From Xanthobacteraceae bacterium (GTDB lineage: Bacteria > Pseudomonadota > Alphaproteobacteria > Rhizobiales > Xanthobacteraceae), in NCBI GenBank assembly GCA_024508855.1, contig JANINJ010000017.1, positions 1-57,491 of the forward strand: DNA of 57,491 nucleotides, in the 5' to 3' direction. The translations under genes and the position numbers were made by a program. Each line of letters begins with the position of its first letter. The first letter of the stretch is position 1. The notes under the pieces are model-generated. The model had not been told where the DNA came from. It saw nothing but the letters and a program-made list of their open reading frames with translations, and did no database searches. Shown here piece by piece: positions 378 through 13,953 of the stretch.

Positions 378-1748
378 TTACGTCGCCTCAACCGTACCGC
401 CCGGAATTCGCGCTTCGACCGTCACGCCGCCAGCGGCCGAAGCCACCGTCACGGATCCGCCGAGCGCCATGACCCGCTCGCGCATTCCCGTCATGCCGAG
501 GCCGAATTTATGGTCGGCCGGCAGACCTGTTCCGTTATCGGACACGCGTACCAGCGTCGCGTTGCCCGCACGACCGTCGTGCGCCGTCTCCGGTGCGATC
601 GTCACGTTGACCTGCGTCGCACCGGAATGGCGAAAGGCATTGGTCAGCGCTTCCTGCACCACGCGATAGATCGTCAGTTCGACCGTTTCGCTGACCGATC
701 CGAGCGGCTCCGCGATTTCGGTTTCCACCGTCACGTCCGGATGGGCGTTGCGCCAGAACCGAACCAGGGCAGCCAAGGCTTCCTCCAGTCCCAGATCGCT
801 GAGGCCCGCCGGCCGAAGTTTGTCGAGCACGCGGCGATTAAACTGTTGTAGCGCATTGACCTGATCGAGCATGGCGGCGCCATGTTTGCGCAATCCGGCG
901 AGATCGGGCGCGGCCGCATCGGCCATCCGCATCAAGGACGTCGCATGCGCCCGAAGCGCGAAAAGATAGGGGCCGAACTCGTCGTGCAATTCGCGCGCGA
1001 TTTCCTTCCTCTCGACGTCCTGCAACGACACCACGCGCTCCGCAAGCCGCTGCTTGTCCGCAATCGCGCCGCCTAACGCCCCGGCGAGATGATTCAGCTT
1101 CTCGCAGATCACCGCGATTTCGGCCGAGCCCGTGGTTGCCACGCGGGTATCGTAACGGCCGGCCTCGATATCGGTCATGGCCTCGGCAAGCGACTGGAGC
1201 GGAGCCAGCGCGCGGCTGACCACCATCACTGTAAGAATCAGCAAAACAGCCGCGACGGCCAAACCGACCTGCAGTTGCGTCACGATGCCATCCCAGATTT
1301 CGGCGATCTCGTCCGTCGGATGCGAGGCGATCAGCAGCGTCCCATAGGGTCTACCATCAATGACGATCGGAACACGCACTCTGGTCTGCGCCGGCCGCAC
1401 CATGGTGACGAACCACTCGGGCGGGGCATCGAACCGGCTGTCGATCGCGCTGTCCGGCTCCGCTCCTTTCGCGATGCCGTCCCGCTCAAGCGTCACGCTG
1501 ACATGGCGCAGCTTCTGCAATCCATCGACGATGGCTTCAAGCTTGAGCTCGGGATCCGGGCTTCCCTTCAAGTCGGCCAACGACGCGTCGATGAACTCGC
1601 GCGCCAGCCGAACGACGCTCTCGTCCTCCGCCTGAATGCGCGGCCCCGCTTCCAGCACCAGCCGCCCGATATTGATCGCGAGGCCCAGGAGAAGGACCAG
1701 CGCGAACAGGAGATTCAGGCGCGTCCGCAGGGAAGTTTTCTGCCACAT
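378..1748 (-). CDS. NarX/MoxY-like sensor histidine kinase
   Basis: This is a membrane sensor kinase of the HisKA_3 (NarX/LiaS) class, about 456 aa. Visible parts are a membrane segment at about residues 10-29, a periplasmic sensing region of about 125 aa, a second membrane segment at about 158-178, a HAMP linker, the phosphoacceptor box ARELHDEFGPYLFALRA with His255, and a C-terminal ATPase domain with DNGTGLP and GLGMTGMRER. The chosen ATG has GGA about 10 bases upstream; a longer frame would add 61 basic, unlikely residues. It is divergent from a LuxR-type response regulator 129 bp away, which is its probable partner. The form resembles kinases next to PQQ alcohol dehydrogenase loci (MoxY, FlhS), and such a dehydrogenase lies 5 kb away. 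Control of that locus is inferred. Confidence 0.85.
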   Translation of the reverse strand: MWQKTSLRTRLNLLFALVLLLGLAINIGRLVLEAGPRIQAEDESVVRLAREFIDASLADLKGSPDPELKLEAIVDGLQKLRHVSVTLERDGIAKGAEPDSAIDSRFDAPPEWFVTMVRPAQTRVRVPIVIDGRPYGTLLIASHPTDEIAEIWDGIVTQLQVGLAVAAVLLILTVMVVSRALAPLQSLAEAMTDIEAGRYDTRVATTGSAEIAVICEKLNHLAGALGGAIADKQRLAERVVSLQDVERKEIARELHDEFGPYLFALRAHATSLMRMADAAAPDLAGLRKHGAAMLDQVNALQQFNRRVLDKLRPAGLSDLGLEEALAALVRFWRNAHPDVTVETEIAEPLGSVSETVELTIYRVVQEALTNAFRHSGATQVNVTIAPETAHDGRAGNATLVRVSDNGTGLPADHKFGLGMTGMRERVMALGGSVTVASAAGGVTVEARIPGGTVEAT

Positions 1749-1877
1749 CCACTCGTTCCAATGGCGCCCGACGCCCCGCCGGAGCGTTGACAGACGAAAA
1801 CAGCGACGATCTAATCGACGATAGCGTATTTCGAAGCAACACCCATAATCCACGCGTAAAACTCGTCGATCGTCATC

Positions 1878-2525
1878 ATGGCAAAATCCAAGACACAAAA
1901 GAAGCTGCGTGTTCTGATCGTCGACGATCATCCGATCGTGATCTCAGGCTGCCGTGCGATGCTCGCGGACGATACGGATATTGTCATCAGCGAAGCGGCC
2001 GATGCGGACAGCGGCGAAGCCTCCTTCACTGCCGAGACACCCGACGTTTGCGTGATCGACATCAACCTGCCGGGCGTCTCCGGCTTCGAGCTGGCGCGGC
2101 GAATCCTGCGGCGCGATGCCGACGCGCGAATCATCATGTTCAGCATGAACGACGATCCCATCTTCGCGGCGCGGGCGATCGAGGCCGGTGCCAAGGGATA
2201 CGTCTCCAAATCGGGCGACCCCAGCGATCTCGTCAGTGCGATCCGCGCGGTGGGCACCGGCGGCACCTTCCTGCCGCCCTCCCTCGCTCAGAGCCTGGCA
2301 TTTGCCGGCCCGGCCTTCGCATCGAGCCGGCTGGCCAAACTGACATCGCGCGAGATCGAAATCCTGCGGCTGCTCGGCGCCGGGAAAAGCCTGTCCGAGA
2401 TCGCGTGGATGATCAACGCGTCCTACAAGACCGTGGCGAACACGTCCTCGATCATCCGCCACAAGCTCGGCGTTCGCTCCTCTTCCGAGCTGGTGCGCGT
2501 GGCGATCGAGGCTCGGCTGGCTTAG
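1878..2525 (+). CDS. LuxR/NarL-family response regulator
   Basis: This 215-aa two-domain regulator has an N-terminal receiver with the acidic pair VDD at about residues 15-17, phosphoacceptor Asp61 in VIDINLPG and the conserved Lys in GYVSKSGD. A LuxR-type helix-turn-helix (LTSREIEILRLLGAGKS, then SYKTVANTSSIIRHKLG) fills the last 65 residues. It is transcribed away from the histidine kinase and would be phosphorylated by it. It converges tail to tail with the ABC transporter operon, only 8 bp apart. Its spacing and class fit a MoxX/FlhR/AgmR-like activator of alcohol oxidation, which is inference. The ribosome-binding site is weak. Confidence 0.88.
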   Translation: MAKSKTQKKLRVLIVDDHPIVISGCRAMLADDTDIVISEAADADSGEASFTAETPDVCVIDINLPGVSGFELARRILRRDADARIIMFSMNDDPIFAARAIEAGAKGYVSKSGDPSDLVSAIRAVGTGGTFLPPSLAQSLAFAGPAFASSRLAKLTSREIEILRLLGAGKSLSEIAWMINASYKTVANTSSIIRHKLGVRSSSELVRVAIEARLA

Positions 2526-2533
2526 CTTCCGCG

Positions 2534-3295
2534 TCAGGCGCTGGCACTATCGGGAAAATATCCCGGAACGCGCGAACGCACTTCCTCTGCAATCCGATCG
2601 ATCTCAGCTTTGCTGCGCGCCCCGCGTGGTGGCGGCAACGGAATCTCAGCGATGACGCCGGCGGGCCGCGTCGACAGAAAGAACAGCCGGTCGGCCAATT
2701 GAAACGCATCGTTCAGGTCGTGGGTCACGAGCAGCGTCGTCACCCGCTCCCGCTGCGTCAGCGTCGTGAGTTCTTCGCGCAATCGTGCCGCGACGGCAGC
2801 GTCGAGCGACACGAACGGCTCGTCGAGCAGCAGAAAATCCGGCCGCACCGCGAAGGCCCGCGCAATCGCCACGCGACGCGCCAGCCCCAGCGACAGTTCG
2901 CCCGGATAGTGCGACAGATGCGAGCCGAGCCCCAGCGTCTCGATCAGGTCATGGAGTTCTTCCAGCGATCGCTCCGCCGGCAGAACGAGACGGATGTTGT
3001 CGGCCACCGTCCGCCACGGCAGCAGGCGCGGCTCCTGGAAGACGATGCCCAAGCGGCCTCGCCCCGGAATCTGCCGTTGACCACGAAAGTCTGGATCGAG
3101 ACCGGCAGCAATGTGCAGAATGGTGGTCTTGCCGCAGCCGGAAGGGCCGATCAACGCACCGAAGGAAAATGCATCGAGCTGCAGTCGAAGATCGCGAATG
3201 ACTTCGACCGGCTTGCCCTCGGCCGAAACATACGTCTTCGTATCGATGCGGATTTCAAGCGGCCCTGCGGCGCCATCGGTTCGTACGTCGTTCAA
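2534..3295 (-). CDS. ABC transporter ATPase (nitrate/sulfonate/taurine type)
   Basis: This is the ATP-hydrolysing subunit of a NitT/TauT-type importer. Walker A is GPSGCGKTT at about residues 50-58, the Q-loop is in VFQEPRLLPW, Walker B is FLLLDEPF and the switch His is in VTHDLNDA. The signature helix reads LSLGLARR instead of the usual LSGGM/LSGGQ, a notable variation. The start is uncertain. A TTG at 3295 gives 253 aa and begins close to the domain; an in-frame ATG at 3352 would add 19 residues lying inside the permease gene. The gene is last in the order binding protein, permease, ATPase and overlaps the permease 3' end, so it is probably translationally coupled. Confidence 0.88.
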   Translation of the reverse strand: MNDVRTDGAAGPLEIRIDTKTYVSAEGKPVEVIRDLRLQLDAFSFGALIGPSGCGKTTILHIAAGLDPDFRGQRQIPGRGRLGIVFQEPRLLPWRTVADNIRLVLPAERSLEELHDLIETLGLGSHLSHYPGELSLGLARRVAIARAFAVRPDFLLLDEPFVSLDAAVAARLREELTTLTQRERVTTLLVTHDLNDAFQLADRLFFLSTRPAGVIAEIPLPPPRGARSKAEIDRIAEEVRSRVPGYFPDSASA

Positions 3296-3992
3296 GCGGC
3301 TGCACCAGGAATGTTTCAATGGCGAGCATAAGCGCGACGAACGAGATCGCATAGCTCAAAATCCGCGTCATATCGAACAGCGAGAACGACGATCCCAATA
3401 CGAAGCCGACGCCGTTAGGCCGCCCAAGCAGTTCGACGACCAGCACGATCTTCCAGATGATCGACAATCCGGAACGCGACACTGCCGCAAGATAGGGCGC
3501 GAGTTGCGGAAGCACGACGTTGCGCAGCTTCGATTGCCACGTGAATTGAAAGGCGCGCGCCATTTCGTCCAGATTGGGATCGAGCGAGCGCGCACCTTCC
3601 CGCGTCACCACGATGACGTTGGGAAATTTGTTGAGCGCTACCGCGATGATCGCCGCGGTCTCGTTGAGGCCGATCCAGATATAGGCGAAGATGATGATGA
3701 CCAGTGCCGGCAAGTTCAGCAGCACGACCAGCCACGGATCGGCATAACGATCGATCGTCGGAGAACGGCCCATCGCATAGCCGGCGGCGACGCCCAGCGT
3801 GAAAGCGATGGCGAACGCCGCCGCCACCCGCGCCAGCGTGCAAGCCATTTGAAACGGCAATTCACCCGTTCGCGTATCGGCGACGATCGCTTCGCCGACG
3901 CTCAACGGACTTGGCAGCAGCGGCGACTGCACCAGCCAGGCGATCAGCGCCCACAAGCCGAGCAGCGCCGCCAGCGAGAGAACCTTCGCCAA
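3255..3992 (-). CDS. ABC transporter permease (NitT/TauT family)
   Basis: This 245-aa inner-membrane protein has five to six hydrophobic segments, starting with one within the first 20 residues. The cytoplasmic coupling (EAA) loop is around GARSLDPNLDEMARAF, typical of BPD_transp_1 permeases of nitrate/sulfonate/taurine importers. A TTG start is supported by GGAGG about 7 bases upstream; the nearby ATG at 3999 is out of frame. The gene follows the binding protein with a 3-bp gap and overlaps the ATPase. With them it would form a periplasmic-binding-protein-dependent importer. The substrate cannot be read from the sequence. Confidence 0.88.
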   Translation of the reverse strand: MAKVLSLAALLGLWALIAWLVQSPLLPSPLSVGEAIVADTRTGELPFQMACTLARVAAAFAIAFTLGVAAGYAMGRSPTIDRYADPWLVVLLNLPALVIIIFAYIWIGLNETAAIIAVALNKFPNVIVVTREGARSLDPNLDEMARAFQFTWQSKLRNVVLPQLAPYLAAVSRSGLSIIWKIVLVVELLGRPNGVGFVLGSSFSLFDMTRILSYAISFVALMLAIETFLVQPLERRTNRWRRRAA

Positions 3993-3995
3993 CGT

Positions 3996-4961
3996 TCATC
4001 CTCCAGACGATGAACGATGATAATACATGCCGGGAGGAATTTCCTTCACAGAACCGAGCAGCGCTGGACCGGCGATATCCGTCAGCGTCCGAAACAGCGT
4101 GCGCGCATCGGTTTCTTCCGCAGCGATTGTGCGGCGCGGAATGCCTTCTCGCGTGCGATCACGGTAGGCCAGGAACGTCGCCTGATCTTCTACCTGCATC
4201 AAGGGACGGAGCGCCTCCCACTCAGCATCCGATTGCTGCAAAATATCATTGGCCTTCTGCGCGACGGTCAGGAAGCGTTCGATGGCGTCCTTGTGGGCCA
4301 ACGCAAATTTTTCGGAAAACACGTAACCCGTCAGTGCCAGCGGCTCCTTCAAACCAAGATCGGTCTGCGCCTCGCGTACATCATAAAGCGGGCGATAACC
4401 GCGCGCTTCCAGTCGCGCGCAGAAGTTCCAGTAGTTGAGATTGGCCTGCGACTCTCCTTGCAGCGTCTTCTGGAACATCAGCGGCGGCGCGCCATATTGC
4501 AACGTCACGCCACGCTTGAGATCAAGCCCGCGGCGGATTGCGGCGGCCTGCACGATGAGCCAGCTCTTGTCCAGTGGGCCGCCTGCCACGGACAGCGTAT
4601 GCCCTTTCAGATCGGCAAGACTGTGCAACGGCGCGTCCTGCTTGACCATGATCGCACCGATCGCAGTCGAATAAGGGTAGAATTGCAGCCTCGTTCCGAG
4701 CGCTCGCTCGCGCGCCACCCACAGCCAGTCCACCACCGCAACGTCCACCGATCCCGCGTTGAGCGCAAGCTTGCCCGCGTCCGGCGACGACAATTCAGTC
4801 AGCTTCAGATCCAGGTTCGCGGCACTAGCCAACCCGTGCCGCTTGATGACGTCGAGTTGCCAGGCGAAGGTACCGGTCTTCTGCACGCCGATCCGCAAGA
4901 TATCGGCGGCATAAGATGGGGTTGCTGCGAGCAGCAGAATGGCAACGATCGTTCGAAGCAT
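3996..4961 (-). CDS. ABC transporter periplasmic substrate-binding protein
   Basis: This 321-aa exported protein has a cleavable signal peptide: hydrophobic TIVAILLLAATPSYA, with cleavage after the Ala at about residue 18. The mature part begins DILRIGVQKTG and has the bilobed NMT1/TauA-like form, with SLADLKGHTLSVAGG and ALAHKDAIERFLTVAQKAND recognisable. It is the first gene of the importer operon. Its position between an alcohol-dehydrogenase locus and a two-component pair suggests the importer serves PQQ-linked oxidation, for a cofactor, metal complex or substrate. That is context only; an ordinary organosulfonate or pyrimidine-type importer is equally possible. Confidence 0.85.
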   Translation of the reverse strand: MLRTIVAILLLAATPSYAADILRIGVQKTGTFAWQLDVIKRHGLASAANLDLKLTELSSPDAGKLALNAGSVDVAVVDWLWVARERALGTRLQFYPYSTAIGAIMVKQDAPLHSLADLKGHTLSVAGGPLDKSWLIVQAAAIRRGLDLKRGVTLQYGAPPLMFQKTLQGESQANLNYWNFCARLEARGYRPLYDVREAQTDLGLKEPLALTGYVFSEKFALAHKDAIERFLTVAQKANDILQQSDAEWEALRPLMQVEDQATFLAYRDRTREGIPRRTIAAEETDARTLFRTLTDIAGPALLGSVKEIPPGMYYHRSSSGG

Positions 4962-5051: not shown

Positions 5052-5780
5052 CTAGCGACGTTTGGCCATTCCGCTGGTCTCTGTGGGCCGGGGGTCAACG
5101 ATTGCAGCATCGTCGGCTTTGTTACTGACGCGTTTCTTCGGAACCGGCAAATCGATCTTGCCGATCTCGATGACCGCCTTGTTCCGGCTGAACAGCTTCA
5201 ATTTGCGCAGGATTTCCGTCACATGTGCCTTGACGGTGGACTCCGCGAGTTTGAGTTCGCTGGCGATGTGCTTGTTCTGATAGCCGCGGCGAATCAGGTC
5301 CAGCACCCGAAGTTGCTGCGGCGTCAGTTCCTGCAGACGTTGCCGCAGCGCCTGCGTGAAATCGGCGTCGCCGCGTTCACCCGAGACGACGAAATTCTTC
5401 GGCACGGCCACCGACCCGCTCAACACGCAGTCGATTGCCTGAGCCAGTTCGCTCTTTGACGTCGATTTGGGAAGATAGCCTGCGGCACCGAGTGAAAGCG
5501 CCTCGCTGACGACCTGTTGATCCTCATGGCTTGAGACGATCGCGACCGGCAGCCGCGGATAGGTCTCGCGCAGGCGCATGAACCCGGAAAATCCAGTCGC
5601 ATCGGGCAGCGATAGATCGAGCAGCGCCAGATCGATTCCCTGTTCGTCGGCAAGAATATGCAAGGCGCCCTTGATCGACATGGTCTCGAAGATGATCGCA
5701 TCCGGATGAGACAGGCGCACGGCATTGCCCAACGCTTCACGGAACAGCGGATGGTCATCGATGATCAAGAAGCTCGTCAT
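5052..5780 (-). CDS. LuxR-family response regulator
   Basis: This 242-aa protein has a receiver domain with IIDDHPLFREAL at the N terminus, phosphoacceptor Asp55 in LALLDLSLPD and Lys in GYLPKSTS. A LuxR helix-turn-helix follows at about residues 148-210 (LTPQQLRVLDLIRRGYQNKHIA, then AESTVKAHVTEILRKLKL). A 30-residue Lys/Arg-rich tail ends in AKRR. GGAG lies immediately before the ATG. It is 95 bp downstream of the binding-protein/cytochrome fusion on the same strand and may be cotranscribed with it. No kinase is adjacent; the only kinase nearby is the one at 378-1748. AgmR/ExaE-type regulators of PQQ ethanol oxidation have this architecture. Confidence 0.87.
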   Translation of the reverse strand: MTSFLIIDDHPLFREALGNAVRLSHPDAIIFETMSIKGALHILADEQGIDLALLDLSLPDATGFSGFMRLRETYPRLPVAIVSSHEDQQVVSEALSLGAAGYLPKSTSKSELAQAIDCVLSGSVAVPKNFVVSGERGDADFTQALRQRLQELTPQQLRVLDLIRRGYQNKHIASELKLAESTVKAHVTEILRKLKLFSRNKAVIEIGKIDLPVPKKRVSNKADDAAIVDPRPTETSGMAKRR

Positions 5781-5875: not shown

Positions 5876-7087
5876 CTAGTTTCCTCCGGGCGTTTGCACC
5901 GTCAAGAGATAGGCATAGACGTCATTCAGCTGTTTGTCGTCGAAAACATCCTTCCACGCGGGCATTCCTTTGGCGGGACGTCCCTCATGAACCGTCTTCC
6001 AGAACGTATCGCGCATGTCGTCGCCGTATTTCAGCTTGAGGCGACGAAGATCAATGTGCCGTTCGCTTTGCACCGCATCGGGGCCATGGCAATGCGCGCA
6101 CGTCCCGTTGAAGACCTCATGGCCGGCGTTCACCGCCTCGGCGTCGTTCGCTGGCGTGGCAGCCGCTGGCGTCGGCGACGGAGCCGTAGTCGAATCTGCA
6201 ACAACGAGAGGCTTCACAGGAGCCTCCGCCGAAGCCAACTGGACATTTGGCTGCGCGAGTGCGGTGAATTTCACCGGCGCATCGTCGGGCAGACCGTATT
6301 TTTCAGCGAGGCCGGGAATCATCGCTTCCAGCTGCGGCAGAACCGCATCAACCTGGTCGCGCAACACGGTCGACCCCTTGGCGAAGCCGATGGCTACCTG
6401 CCACAACAGGCCCTCGCCTTCCACGCTCTGGATATCGTATTTGCCACCATGTTCCGTCTTGTTGAGCCAGCCTGCGACGGGGCCCCAAATAAATGCTACA
6501 TCAACCTTGCCTTGATCAAGCGCCTTCATCCCCTCGTCCGGGCTGAGCACCGTGACCTTTTCAATCTCGTCGCGTTGCGCCAGCAGGTTTTGCGGCGTGG
6601 TCTCGTATTGAACGGCAACGCGCAGTTGCTTCAGGTCGCCGATGCCGGAAATCTTGCGGCCCTTCGTCGTGACCAGTGCGTAGCCCTCCTTCATGATCGG
6701 CTTGGAGAAGATTACCGCAGGACCCATAAAATCGGTCGTTGGAGTCAGCCCGATCATGGCGTCGCACTGCTTGCCGAGCAGCGTCACCCGCACCGTTCGC
6801 TTGCCGAAATAGGACTTGTACCAATCGTAAACGACCGGCCGGTCGAGCGCCTTGCCGAGAGCCTGCCCGATCTCGAGATAGAATCCCGGGGTATTCGGAT
6901 TATCGCTTGAAAACGGCAGGTTGGTAGGATCGGCACACAACCGGAGCGGCGCTCGTTCGTCGGCACCGGCCTTTGAGGCCGGCGCCAGGAGTGTAAGGAC
7001 AACAGCAAGAGCCGAAATGCTTACGGGAGCGCAAGAAGTTCGGTTGTTGAGAGACAGACCGTCCCGGCTCAAAAAATTCGCAAGCAT
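5876..7087 (-). CDS. XoxJ-like binding domain fused to cytochrome c (XoxG-like)
   Basis: This is a 403-aa periplasmic protein with a signal sequence (hydrophobic SISALAVVLTLLAPASKAGA). Residues about 45-275 form the quinoprotein-dehydrogenase-associated solute-binding-protein-like domain: LRLCADPTNLPFSS at the start and DVAFIWGPVAGW near residue 200. That is the family of XoxJ/MxaJ. A Pro/Ala/Thr linker (about 290-315) leads to a class I cytochrome c domain with haem motif CAHCH at 330-334 and probable Met375 ligand in GMPAW. In known methylotrophs these are two genes, xoxJ and xoxG; here they are one chain. GGGAG precedes the ATG by 7 bases. It lies 21 bp after the PQQ dehydrogenase in the same operon, so it should accept electrons from that enzyme and assist its maturation (inferred). 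Confidence 0.87.
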   Translation of the reverse strand: MLANFLSRDGLSLNNRTSCAPVSISALAVVLTLLAPASKAGADERAPLRLCADPTNLPFSSDNPNTPGFYLEIGQALGKALDRPVVYDWYKSYFGKRTVRVTLLGKQCDAMIGLTPTTDFMGPAVIFSKPIMKEGYALVTTKGRKISGIGDLKQLRVAVQYETTPQNLLAQRDEIEKVTVLSPDEGMKALDQGKVDVAFIWGPVAGWLNKTEHGGKYDIQSVEGEGLLWQVAIGFAKGSTVLRDQVDAVLPQLEAMIPGLAEKYGLPDDAPVKFTALAQPNVQLASAEAPVKPLVVADSTTAPSPTPAAATPANDAEAVNAGHEVFNGTCAHCHGPDAVQSERHIDLRRLKLKYGDDMRDTFWKTVHEGRPAKGMPAWKDVFDDKQLNDVYAYLLTVQTPGGN

Positions 7088-9009: not shown

Positions 9010-9116
9010 GCTTCGAGCATCGCGGCATGCGCTTACCGTCGGACACGGACAACTTCCTGAAGGCGCGAAGTGCGTCTCGGCTATCGGGTCGAGCTTGCAA
9101 AGCTGCTCTTCAAGCG

Positions 9117-9977
9117 ATGGGAGCAACATCTCTGCGCTTGCTCTTGCTTTGTGTGGTTGCCGCCGCGGCGACAGCGAGCCACGCCGATGAAATCGAGACC
9201 GAGCACTTGTTCGGATTCACCACCGGCACCGATGTCGGGAGCGTCGGCGAGCGGGAATTCGAAGGTTCGACCACCGCACGGTTGGCCAAGCGCTCTGGAA
9301 ATTACAGTGCCGCATCGCAGATGTTCTCCGCCGAATTCGTGCCGCTACCCAACCTCCGCACCGAATACAGTGCTACTTTCGTCGCCCATGACATCTCCGG
9401 CGTGAGCGGTTTCGACAATCGCAGACAACTGGCGATTGGTGGGTTCTCCGCGGATTTTCGCTACCAGCTTCTCGATCGGGCCAGCGCCCCGTTCGGCTTC
9501 GCGATTGGCGCCGAGCCGCACTGGAGTCGCATTGAGGACGTATCGGGCGCGTCCGTTCGGGAATACGGGGCCGATTTTGTCGCGGCATTCGACAAGGAAG
9601 TCGTTCCGAACCGGCTCGTCGCAGCCTTCAACCTGCTCTACCAGCCGGATGTCTCGCGCTCGAAGACGACGGGCACGTGGTCGCAGGAATCGACGTCCGG
9701 AATCGCCGCAGCGGCGATGGCGCAGATATCTCCCGGGATATTCTTCGGCCTCGAAGGTCGCTATCTGCGCCACTACGACGGTATCGGCTTCGATGCCTTT
9801 GACGGTCATGCCGCCTTTCTGGGGCCGACGCTATACGTCAAGCTATCGCAGCGGGCATGGGTCGCCGCAGCCTGGAGCGCGCAGATCGCCGGTCACGCGA
9901 CCGGTACGCCGGGATCGCTGGACCTGGTCCATTTCGAACGTCATCAGGTCCGTTTCCTGTTTGGCCTGAATTTCTGA
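9117..9977 (+). CDS. Outer-membrane beta-barrel protein of unknown function
   Basis: This is a 286-aa exported protein. The ATG at 9117 is followed directly by a clear signal peptide (RLLLLCVVAAAATASHA). The rest shows alternating polar/aromatic strands (such as YRYQL-type segments and FFGLEGRYLRHYDG) and ends in ...FLFGLNF, with the terminal Phe typical of outer-membrane barrels. An earlier in-frame ATG at 9027 would spoil the signal peptide. It is divergent from the PQQ dehydrogenase, sharing a 290-bp intergenic region. It may be a channel or sensor for alcohol or metal entry, which is inference from context. I recognise no named family. Confidence 0.75.
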   Translation: MGATSLRLLLLCVVAAAATASHADEIETEHLFGFTTGTDVGSVGEREFEGSTTARLAKRSGNYSAASQMFSAEFVPLPNLRTEYSATFVAHDISGVSGFDNRRQLAIGGFSADFRYQLLDRASAPFGFAIGAEPHWSRIEDVSGASVREYGADFVAAFDKEVVPNRLVAAFNLLYQPDVSRSKTTGTWSQESTSGIAAAAMAQISPGIFFGLEGRYLRHYDGIGFDAFDGHAAFLGPTLYVKLSQRAWVAAAWSAQIAGHATGTPGSLDLVHFERHQVRFLFGLNF

Positions 9978-10222
9978 ATGCGGTCAATTTTCGCGTTGAA
10001 AATTGCTGCACTGCAAATTCCTCCGGTCGCACCCATTTCATCTCATGCATCTACAACATGGTTCCGAAGTGCCCGGCAAACTCCGCCCGCGCCTCCGATC
10101 CAGTCGAAACTTTCCAAGGGAAATCCAGCGCTTAGTCCACGGTTGCCTACTACCAAGATCGCTGTTGCCAAGTTGCATGGCCGTGCTTCTAATTGGAACA
10201 ATGCAAGAAATGGGAGGACTAC

Positions 10223-10708
<486 letters not shown>

Positions 10709-10794
10709 CGACTGCGGGCGACCGTTCGAACGAATTCAAAGCCGCCGCACTTCGATGGAAACGGCGGAAAACACTCCGGTAGGGAGAGAGAAAC

Positions 10795-13140
10795 ATGGGT
10801 GTCGAAGGTATTGGCGCAAGCGTTGTGCGCAAGGAAGACAGGCGTTTCATCACCGGCAAGGGCCGGTATGTCGATGACATCAAGCTGCAGGGCATGACCC
10901 ATGCGCATTTTGTCAGAAGTCCGCACGCCCACGCGAAAGTAAAGGGCATCGATTCATCCGCAGCCTTGAAAATGCCGGGCGTCGTCGCAGTGCTGACGGG
11001 TCAGCAGATCGTCGACGACAAGGTCGGCAACCTGATCTGTGGTTGGGCTATCCATTCCAAGGACGGCACACCGATGAAAATGGGCGCATGGCCGGCAATG
11101 GCCCCGGAAACGGTGCGCTTCGTCGGACAGGCTGTCGCAGTGGTTATCGCCGAGACCAAGAATCAGGCGAAGGACGCCGCCGAGGCGGTCGTCGTCGATT
11201 ACGAAGAACTCCCTGCGGCCTCCGACATTCGTGCCGCGATTGCGCCGGGTGCGCCGCAGTTGCATCCCGAAGCGCCGGGCAACGTCGTCTACGATTGGGA
11301 AATCGGCGACAAGAACGCCACCAATGAAGCCTTCAGCAAGGCCGCAAATGTGGTGACGCTCGAGCTTACCAACAACCGCCTGGTGCCCAACGCAATGGAG
11401 CCCCGCGCGGCAATCGGCGACTACAATGACGCCGAGGAACACTTCACGCTCTATACGACATCGCAGAATCCGCATGTCGCACGTCTGGTGCTGTCGGCCT
11501 TCTACAACATCGCGCCAGAACACAAGCTGCGTGTCATCGCGCCCGACGTCGGTGGCGGGTTTGGATCGAAGATCTTCATCTATCCGGAAGAAATGGTGGC
11601 ATTGTGGGCCTCCAAGAAGGTCAATCGTCCGGTGAAGTGGACCGGCGATCGCACCGAAGCCTTCTTAACCGACGCACACGGTCGCGACCATCTGACCAAG
11701 GCCGAACTGGCGTTCGACAAGGACAACAAAATCCTCGGACTGCGCGTGAGCACCCACGCCAATTTCGGCGCCTATATGTCGCTGTTCTCGTCGTCGGTGC
11801 CGACCTATCTCTATGCGACGCTGTTGTCGGGCCAATACAACATTCCGGCAATCTACGCCGAGGTGATGGGTGTCTACACCAACACCTCCCCCGTTGACGC
11901 CTATCGCGGCGCCGGACGCCCCGAGGCGAGCTTTGTCATTGAGCGTTTGATGGAAACCTCGGCGCGGCAATTGAAGGTCGATCCGGCCGAACTTCGCCGC
12001 AAGAATTTCGTCACGGTGTTCCCGCATCAGACGCCCGTCATCATGGCGTACGACATCGGCGACTTTAATGCCTCGCTCGATGCCGCGCTCAAGACCATTG
12101 ACTATGCCGGCTTCCCGGCGCGGCAGGCCAAGGCCAAAAGCGAAGGTAAGCTGCGCGGTATTGGCTTCTCCTGCTACATCGAAGCCTGCGGTATCGCTCC
12201 GTCGAAAGCGGTGGGCAGCCTCGGTGCCGGCGTCGGCCTCTGGGAGTCCGCAGAGGTGCGGGTCAATCCGGTCGGCACCATCGAAATCTTGACCGGCTCG
12301 CACAGCCACGGGCAAGGTCATGAAACGACGTTCTCGCAATTAATCGCCGAACGTCTCGGCGTTCCGATCAGCCAGGTGCAGATCATCCATGGCGACACCG
12401 ACAAGGTGCAGTTCGGCATGGGCACTTACGGCTCGCGCTCTCTGGCGGTCGGCGGTTCGGCCATCATCAAGGCGATGGAGAAGGTTGAAGCCAAAGCCAA
12501 GAAAATTGCCGCGCATGCGCTCGAAGCGTCGGAGGACGACATCGTCATCGAGAACGGCGAATTCAAGGTGACGGGTACCGACAAGTCGATCGCGCTGCCG
12601 ATGGTCGCGCTCGCTGCCTACACCGCCCACAACCTGCCGGACGGCATGGAGCCGGGCCTGAAGGAAAGTGCGTTCTACGATCCTTCCAACTTCACGTTCC
12701 CGGCCGGCACCTATATCTGCGAGCTTGAAGTTGATCCGGGGACCGGCAAGACGTCCTTCGTCAACTTCGTTGCCGCCGACGACTTCGGACGCCTGATCAA
12801 TCCGATGATCGTCGAAGGCCAGGTTCACGGCGGCCTGACCCAGGGCATCGGGCAGGCGCTGCTTGAAGGGGCGGTTTACGACAGCACCGGCCAGCTCGTC
12901 ACTGCGTCATTCATGGATTACGCCATGCCGCGCGCTGACGATGTGCCGTCCTATAAGCTGCAACACACGACGACGCTGTGTCCGGGCAATCCGCTCGGCG
13001 TCAAGGGATGCGGCGAGGCCGGCGCCATCGGCGCATCCGCAGCAGTCATCAACGCCATCACAAACGCTATCGGCAACAACAAGCTCGAGATGCCGGCGAC
13101 ACCCGACCGGGTGTGGCACGCTATCCACGGCCAGGCGTAA
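10795..13140 (+). CDS. coxL: Form II CO-dehydrogenase-like large subunit (molybdenum)
   Basis: This 781-aa catalytic subunit binds the molybdopterin-cytosine-dinucleotide cofactor. Its active-site loop reads AYRGAGR at residues 369-375. That is the signature of form II, not the AYXCSFR loop of true form I CO dehydrogenase with its Cu-binding Cys. The conserved Glu of the molybdenum site is in GCGEAGAIG (about Glu741), and DVGGGFGSK at about 251-259 is typical of the family. The substrate is therefore uncertain: an aldehyde, a heteroaromatic compound or possibly CO. GGGAGAG precedes the ATG. It lies between coxS and coxM. Confidence 0.93.
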
Positions 13141-13152
13141 GGAGGACGCACC

Positions 13153-13953
13153 ATGTACGAGACCCATTACCATCGCGCCTCCAGTGTCGAGGACGCTGCC
13201 GCGCTGTTCGCCAAGGGCTCCGACGCGAAGTTCCTTGCCGGCGGCCAAACCCTGCTGCCAGTCATGAAGCAACGCCTCGCCGCTCCCACCGATGTCGTCG
13301 ATCTTGCCAAGATACCGGCCATGATCGGCGTCGAAGTCAGCGGCGATACCGTGACCATCAAGGCGGCGACAACGCATTATGATGTCGCCACCAACACGGC
13401 GTTGCAAAAAACCCTTCCGGCGTTGGCGCATCTTGCCGGGATGATCGGCGATCCCGCGGTGCGCTATCGCGGGACCATTGGCGGTTCGCTCGCCAACAAC
13501 GACCCGGCGGCGGATTATCCTGCCGCCGTGCTGGCGCTCAACGCCACGGTGAAAACCAACAAGCGCAGCATTTCGGCCGAGGATTTCTTCAAGGGCCTAT
13601 TCACGACGGCGCTTGAGGACGGCGAGATCATCACCGCGGTTTCGTTTCCCGTTCCGGCCAAGGCCGGCTACGCCAAGTTCCGGCATCCGGCGTCGCGTTT
13701 CGCCCTGACCGGCGTGTTCGTCGCGAAAAGCAAGTCCGGCGACGTTCGCGTCGCTGCGACCGGTGCTTCGCAAAACGGCGTGATGCGCGTGCCGAGCATC
13801 GAGCAGGCGCTGAAGGCAAACTGGTCGGCCTCCGCACTCGACGGAATCAAGGTCTCAGCCGACGGCCTGATGTCGGACATCCACGGTGCGGCCGACTACC
13901 GCGCCAACCTCATCAAGGTGATGGCGCAACGCGCCGTGACCGAAGCTGGATAA
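13153..13953 (+). CDS. coxM: Molybdenum hydroxylase FAD subunit, CoxM type
   Basis: This 266-aa subunit binds FAD and hands electrons to the respiratory chain or another acceptor. The two FAD-binding loops are visible as [15 protein letters not shown] near residue 35 and [17 protein letters not shown] near residue 112. The C-terminal CO_deh_flav_C domain follows. It is the last gene of the operon, 12 bp after coxL with GGAGG before the ATG. A strong terminator follows within 30 bp, so no coxD/E/F/G-type maturation genes are cotranscribed. Confidence 0.93.

Follow-up and report, generated by a model that had tools for sequence, protein, structure and literature searches.

In this Xanthobacteraceae bacterium a J-type periplasmic binding-protein domain and a class I cytochrome c are encoded as one protein, and this J-cytochrome fusion is real and conserved among Bradyrhizobium-like bacteria. 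The gene lies directly after a PQQ alcohol dehydrogenase gene in the window (the whole stretch of 57,491 nucleotides that was analysed; Table 1). Judged from sequence comparison, the product probably serves the neighbouring dehydrogenase as its dedicated electron acceptor in the periplasm, with a built-in J-type domain that would dock on the enzyme or help it to mature.

Table 1. Features of the fusion gene and its surroundings in the window (kept loci: the best 80 of 89 confirmed loci of a genome scan).
Feature	Position	Strand	Basis or occurrence
Histidine kinase with LapD/MoxY-like periplasmic domain	378..1931	-	in 6/80 kept loci
LuxR-type response regulator, second	1878..2525	+	in 6/80 kept loci
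ABC ATP-binding protein	2534..3352	-	in 6/80 kept loci
ABC permease	3255..3992	-	in 6/80 kept loci
NMT1/SsuA-like ABC substrate-binding protein	3996..4961	-	in 8/80 kept loci, two partial
LuxR-type response regulator	5052..5780	-	downstream of fusion
J-cytochrome fusion gene	5876..7087	-	403-aa ORF, no internal stop; domain matches
Class I cytochrome c domain, residues 318-394	5906..6136	-	PF13442; CAHCH 330-334 and Met375
Variable Ala/Thr-rich linker, residues 273-317	6137..6271	-	alignment conservation
MxaJ/XoxJ-type periplasmic binding-protein domain, residues 48-267	6287..6946	-	TIGR03871; PDB 6onp; Cys51 and Cys108 invariant
N-terminal region, residues 1-44	6956..7087	-	signal-peptide-like hydrophobic stretch, read from sequence
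PQQ alcohol dehydrogenase, non-XoxF clade, 611 aa	7109..8944	-	TIGR03075 685 bits; trees
Divergent 316-aa protein without Pfam or NCBIfam match	9027..9977	+	in 7/80 kept loci
Three-gene CO/aldehyde dehydrogenase-type molybdenum hydroxylase (small, large, FAD subunits)	10193..13953	+	conserved neighbour

Domain architecture and the J domain

The stop codon of the dehydrogenase gene is separated from the start of the fusion gene by 21 bp, and GGGAGA is found 8-13 nt 5' of the ATG. The first-pass annotation had given the coordinates and anatomy of the chain correctly, the minus strand being absent from it. The domain search it proposed returned both halves of the protein: TIGR03871 (MoxJ_2) matched with profile positions 2-230 of 232 (E 4.8e-30, under the curated cut-off), and Cytochrome_CBB3 (PF13442) was detected in the C-terminal part (E 1.7e-11; 44.7 bits, exceeding the cut-off of 27). 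SBP_bac_3 was matched as well (E 3.6e-6). The heme site CAHCH conforms to CxxCH. Ninety-five fused proteins, including at least four duplicates, were aligned; both heme cysteines, His334 and the J-domain residues Cys51 and Cys108 were present in 95/95 sequences and Met375 in 94/95, the exception being one gap, by length that of locus L108, the fusion frame of which ends at a stop soon after the heme site. The domain matches and this alignment thus bear out the earlier description of a single chain that combines a J-type domain with a cytochrome bearing CxxCH and the conserved Met and is encoded beside a PQQ dehydrogenase. Residues 1-44 are poorly conserved (0.45), and the location of the protein is probably the periplasm.

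The best PDB match of the J part is XoxJ 6onp (residues 18-267, E 3.7e-13), both cysteines of which align with the cysteine pair of the fusion. Six positions (Cys51, Asp53, Pro54, Pro58, Cys108 and Trp201) were found in 24/24 fused J rows, and in 5, 5, 4, 8, 6 and 5, respectively, of 8 separate J rows. The TIGR03871 score amounts to 104.9 bits against a cut-off of 212, the four fused proteins scanned reach 75-110 bits, all far under it, and the identity to the XoxJ encoded in the same genome is 24%; the function of the J domain may therefore have drifted.

Twenty-two further loci with dehydrogenases 50-74% identical to that of the window were compared. Nine encode a fused J domain and twelve the cytochrome alone, while one lies at a contig end; this 9:12 ratio is no frequency, since the sample was drawn by dehydrogenase similarity. 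A cytochrome of the same family directly follows the dehydrogenase in 21 of the 22 loci. Being kept with or without J, it is, on these comparisons, the constant companion of the dehydrogenase, as expected of an electron acceptor, and the J domain is the variable one. TIGR03871 matches were identified in 11 of the 12 genomes in which the cytochrome stands alone, and in six of these genomes above the cut-off; G472 carries the fusion itself as well. Genome G1290 has only weak matches, and none was obtained in genome G611. Weak matches mean little, because sub-cut-off hits also appear in 5/14 control genomes. Twelve of the 21 loci that could be judged lack J at the fused position; together with the results for G611 and G1290, this shows that some members do without J.

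These cytochrome-only relatives, along with a J score far under the family cut-off, are what would be expected if the J domain served only as a passive tether for docking, or were what is left of a ligand-binding domain that has drifted, without any role in maturation, the cytochrome alone being of importance. This explanation is possible but doubtful: where it is fused, the J domain is as conserved as the cytochrome domain (0.78 each in the fused-protein alignment), and its cysteine pair is invariant.

Two side observations concern the same genomes. G472, a member of the family, carries the fused system alongside a sister dehydrogenase that has a stand-alone cytochrome (L133, L134). In G611, genes for MoxR, DUF58 and VWA proteins are located after the stand-alone cytochrome (L145:5600-12049, MoxR-type AAA). 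None of the remaining 21 of the 22 further loci showed these genes, and a general replacement of J by these proteins was rejected, L145 being the sole case.

The partner dehydrogenase, its cytochrome and the origin of the fusion

Five TIGR03075 PQQ dehydrogenases above the cut-off are encoded in the genome. A 28-row tree was calculated for the window enzyme, including 4mae and 7o6z (which we take to be SolV XoxF and AP8 XoxF1, respectively), the genome's own XoxF, XoxF-like plasmid enzymes and Azospirillum enzymes. The window subfamily was split from the XoxF clade with a support of 100/98. Two Azospirillum dehydrogenases formed a separate clade; L147 matched the ethanol dehydrogenase 6zcw with 921 bits. 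By these trees, the window dehydrogenase is neither a XoxF nor of the Azospirillum-like ethanol dehydrogenase type. Asp353 (presumably catalytic), Asp355, Glu237 and Asn303 (presumably metal ligands) and the Cys169-Cys170 pair are present in 37/37 subfamily rows. Since the same residues occur in 10/10 outgroup rows, the lanthanide signature is no marker of the window clade. An extra active-site Asp, here Asp355, is used in PMC12628762 as the criterion for predicted lanthanide dependence.

The cytochrome is likewise set apart. In the profile search no TIGR03874 (XoxG) match to the fusion was obtained at E 0.001, and the PedF cytochrome c550 model (TIGR04494) reached 36.5 bits, under its cut-off of 122. 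The PDB matches of the cytochrome part were cbb3 CcoP, the quinohemoprotein alcohol dehydrogenase 1yiq and cytochrome c6, and among the 20 PDB matches listed for the fusion no entry was named XoxG or cytochrome cL. Similarity to the genome's own XoxG is weak (E 0.005), whereas over its C-terminal 93 residues the fusion shares 49% identity (E 1e-25) with the stand-alone cytochrome in G472, the adjoining dehydrogenase of which is 57% identical to that of the window. Identities of 30-33% were found to cytochromes beside 42%-identical dehydrogenases. In a tree of 89 columns fused and stand-alone cytochromes formed one group against eight XoxG, PedF and other cytochromes (91/89). As far as profiles and this tree can tell, the fusion cytochrome is not XoxG.

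The first-pass annotation had called the cytochrome XoxG-like and had placed the gene in a lanthanide-methylotrophy XoxF cluster; neither assignment is supported. A fusion of XoxJ and XoxG serving a XoxF methanol dehydrogenase would fit the lanthanide-signature Asp, the similarity of the J part to XoxJ 6onp and the best PDB match of the dehydrogenase, 4mae (450.9 bits). Nevertheless, it is improbable. The window enzyme falls outside the single clade made up of the XoxF references and XoxF-like rows used, and the ethanol dehydrogenases 6zcv and 1flg (412 and 411 bits) outscore XoxF 6oc5 and 6dam (377 and 363 bits). Moreover, besides the lack of a XoxG-type cytochrome, a separate canonical set of xoxF (604 aa), xoxG (170 aa) and xoxJ (300 aa) is present in the same genome (C2:27958-31343, identical to L127:3959-7344). 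The gene products of this set scored 266 bits with TIGR03874 (XoxG) and 308 bits with TIGR03871 (XoxJ, above the cut-off), and the best PDB match of its XoxF was 6oc5 with 1085 bits. The partner entry of the latter, 6OC6, is named AM1 XoxF1 in PMC12628762. In the same source, methanol growth of Bradyrhizobium is assigned to the XoxF that is approximately 75% identical to that of AM1, and the passage on seven other PQQ dehydrogenases of one Bradyrhizobium strain assigns no function to them (PMC12628762).

In the dehydrogenase tree the loci with stand-alone cytochromes form one clade (99/96) with fused rows on both sides. A constraint holding the fused rows together cost 2.6 log-likelihood units and was not rejected (p-AU 0.382). 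The fused J domains all fall to the same side of a branch in the J tree (87/93), as do the fused cytochromes in the cytochrome tree of 89 columns (94/82). The p-AU value and the latter two trees lead us to prefer a single origin. Long branches were seen for the J row of L137 (3.5 changes per column), for L136/L137 with L147/L148 in the dehydrogenase tree and for several cytochrome rows. With moderate support and these long branches, the trees allow for a single fusion event and subsequent vertical descent, J having been lost once or the sister lineage never having had it. Two independent fusions are less favoured, given that the constraint was not rejected and that the J and cytochrome trees unite the fused rows.

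A wider scheme can be put forward tentatively and is, in our estimation, rather unlikely to hold in all its parts: this lanthanide-signature, non-XoxF dehydrogenase clade would have its own cytochrome family, to which J was fused once, long ago, so that the acceptor doubles as a maturation factor, with a sister lineage lacking the fused J. If true, only an enzyme loaded or checked by J would be handed its electron acceptor, and fused and unfused sisters would allow the role of J to be tested by domain removal.

Spread, integrity and gene neighbourhood of the fusion

The genome_contigs collection, described as comprising 84,980 species genomes, was scanned with a four-row alignment as query. 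The best 80 of 89 confirmed loci, which were kept, belong to Afipia, Bradyrhizobium and several MAGs and show 45-79% identity over the best segment. Within these 80, all loci encode one frame with CxxCH, and the dehydrogenase is located directly upstream on the same strand in every case (the contig of L108 carries only the end of the dehydrogenase). The motif KGMPxW was found in 78/80; L066 lacks the exact string but has the Met aligned, and in L108 the stop precedes the motif. As the scan relied on two short peptide patterns, both inside the J domain, cytochrome-only relatives and divergent fusions would be missed. In partial genome samples of the order and the family, full-length fusion matches were present in 4/199 genomes of the order, and matches at E 1e-25 in 16/296 genomes of the family, the own genome being counted in both and the match in G403 being split across two contigs. 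Nine more distant homologues from four other family groups (30-52% identity) are fused as well. No plasmid-borne fusion was seen: 148 plasmid records matched, none with 80% coverage in one place.

The linker comprises 46 aa in the window protein and 30-66 aa across the fused set, in which its composition is 24% Ala, 12% Thr, 11% Val, 11% Gly and 8% Pro. A long, variable and Ala/Thr-rich segment of this kind would suit cleavage after export into a free J protein and a free cytochrome, in which case the fusion would only fix their ratio. We regard this as quite improbable, since the linker is poorly conserved (0.48) and no shared cleavage site is therefore apparent. A frameshift in sequencing or assembly that joined two genes, the objection raised by the first-pass annotation itself, is excluded by the 80 single-frame relatives from different records, codon-position GC being alike in the J and cytochrome domains and the nine distant homologues being fused too.

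A LuxR-type regulator similar to that at 5052..5780 was identified in 76/80 kept loci, in 75 of them downstream of the fusion and in L107 upstream and reversed; a regulatory link between the two may be assumed from this arrangement. On the far side of the dehydrogenase, genes for the small and large subunits of a molybdenum hydroxylase (CO/aldehyde/xanthine dehydrogenase type) were found in 68/80 and for the FAD subunit in 63/80 loci. Such a hydroxylase is also located beside the fusion in L164, which belongs to another family. It is only a guess that dehydrogenase and hydroxylase might form a route from alcohol via aldehyde to acid.

The complete ABC transporter is encoded in six of the 80 kept loci (L029-L033, L041), and L034 and L035 contain only part of the binding protein. 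Homologous transporter genes were detected near the distant fused loci L143, L165, L166 and L167 and near neither L163 nor L164, and also near the unfused cluster L137, near L148 and in an Azospirillum PQQ cluster (46-51% identity). Homologues of the NMT1/SsuA-like transporter (window 2534-4961) thus recur beside differing PQQ dehydrogenase clades. The unfused relative L137 (8674-16675) harbors the ABC transporter, a homologue of the 9027-9977 protein and a 42%-identical dehydrogenase; its cytochrome (117 aa) and binding protein (312 aa) are encoded by separate genes.

Proposed function and known systems

In the reading considered probable here, the protein would be exported and loaded with heme. 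The dehydrogenase would use PQQ and, going by its Asp355 signature, a lanthanide to oxidize an alcohol, and the C-terminal His/Met cytochrome would accept single electrons and pass them on towards a terminal oxidase. The J domain would dock on the immature dehydrogenase and aid cofactor loading, as proposed for XoxJ/MxaJ; alternatively, the flexible linker may simply hold the cytochrome near the dehydrogenase. J proteins have been proposed to bind the apo-dehydrogenase and to aid cofactor insertion, as put forward in PMC12997753. According to the same source, the roles proposed for MxaJ/XoxJ range over maturation, regulation and modulation of the dehydrogenase-cytochrome interaction (PMC12997753). 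That the fusion ties maturation to electron transfer, as the first-pass annotation suggested, is a possible, putative role.

Several systems resemble the window cluster in part. In quinohemoprotein alcohol dehydrogenases (1yiq, which matches both window proteins) a cytochrome c is likewise fused within a PQQ alcohol-oxidizing system, there to the dehydrogenase itself. A fusion termed XoxG:J or cytochrome cGJ was reportedly described for Methylacidiphilum by Versantvoort in 2019. The Methylacidiphilum XoxGJ is presented as a fusion and as the electron acceptor of XoxF (PMC6688271, PMC8498564, PMC8170126), so that the statement of the first-pass annotation that J and cytochrome are two genes in described clusters was too general. 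The likeness is a J-type domain and a cytochrome c in one chain within a PQQ dehydrogenase operon. By analogy, the window protein may be a J-assisted electron acceptor. As far as described in these sources, the partner is XoxF in Methylacidiphilum and a non-XoxF enzyme here, and the J part, truncated there and accompanied by a separate xoxJ in the operon (PMC6688271), covers nearly the whole TIGR03871 profile in the window fusion. In addition, the cytochrome here is not XoxG-type, unlike that of cGJ, and the domain order, J followed by cytochrome in the window, probably differs, judging by the name cGJ alone.

Dehydrogenase, cytochrome and J are clustered as in the window in the XoxF-XoxG-XoxJ systems of Methylorubrum, Bradyrhizobium and the genome studied here (C2:27958-31343), yet these comprise three genes, with a TIGR03874-type XoxG and a XoxJ above the TIGR03871 cut-off. 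The PedH/PedE-PedF-PedG system of Pseudomonas and the PedF-type clusters of Azospirillum also bring together a cytochrome c550, a non-XoxF PQQ alcohol dehydrogenase and a binding protein of J-like type and, as in the window, have genes for an ABC transporter or a response regulator in the vicinity. They differ in that the genes are separate and that the two Azospirillum dehydrogenases belong to another clade. Plasmid operons of Methylocella tundrae and Methylocystis iwaonis (L146:7944-16137, L149:4225-12711) contain separate J and cytochrome genes beside cytochrome oxidase genes. These three-gene operons are arranged as dehydrogenase, J, cytochrome, and their dehydrogenases fall into the XoxF clade. 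For Methylophilaceae, the gene order F-J-G is given in PMC4109929. This order, found in Methylophilaceae and on the Methylocella and Methylocystis plasmids, could be the one from which a J-cytochrome fusion arises.

In a literature search of limited scope, no paper on this proteobacterial fusion was recognized, and none reporting biochemistry, expression or a substrate for its clade came to light. A J-cytochrome fusion as such is already known from Methylacidiphilum (methanotrophic Verrucomicrobia); the window variant is new in its partner clade, its cytochrome type and its nearly complete J domain. It marks a clade of non-XoxF PQQ dehydrogenases with lanthanide-signature ligands. With a natural fusion in many Bradyrhizobium and sisters that have only the cytochrome, comparing or trimming the domains offers a direct route to the function of J.
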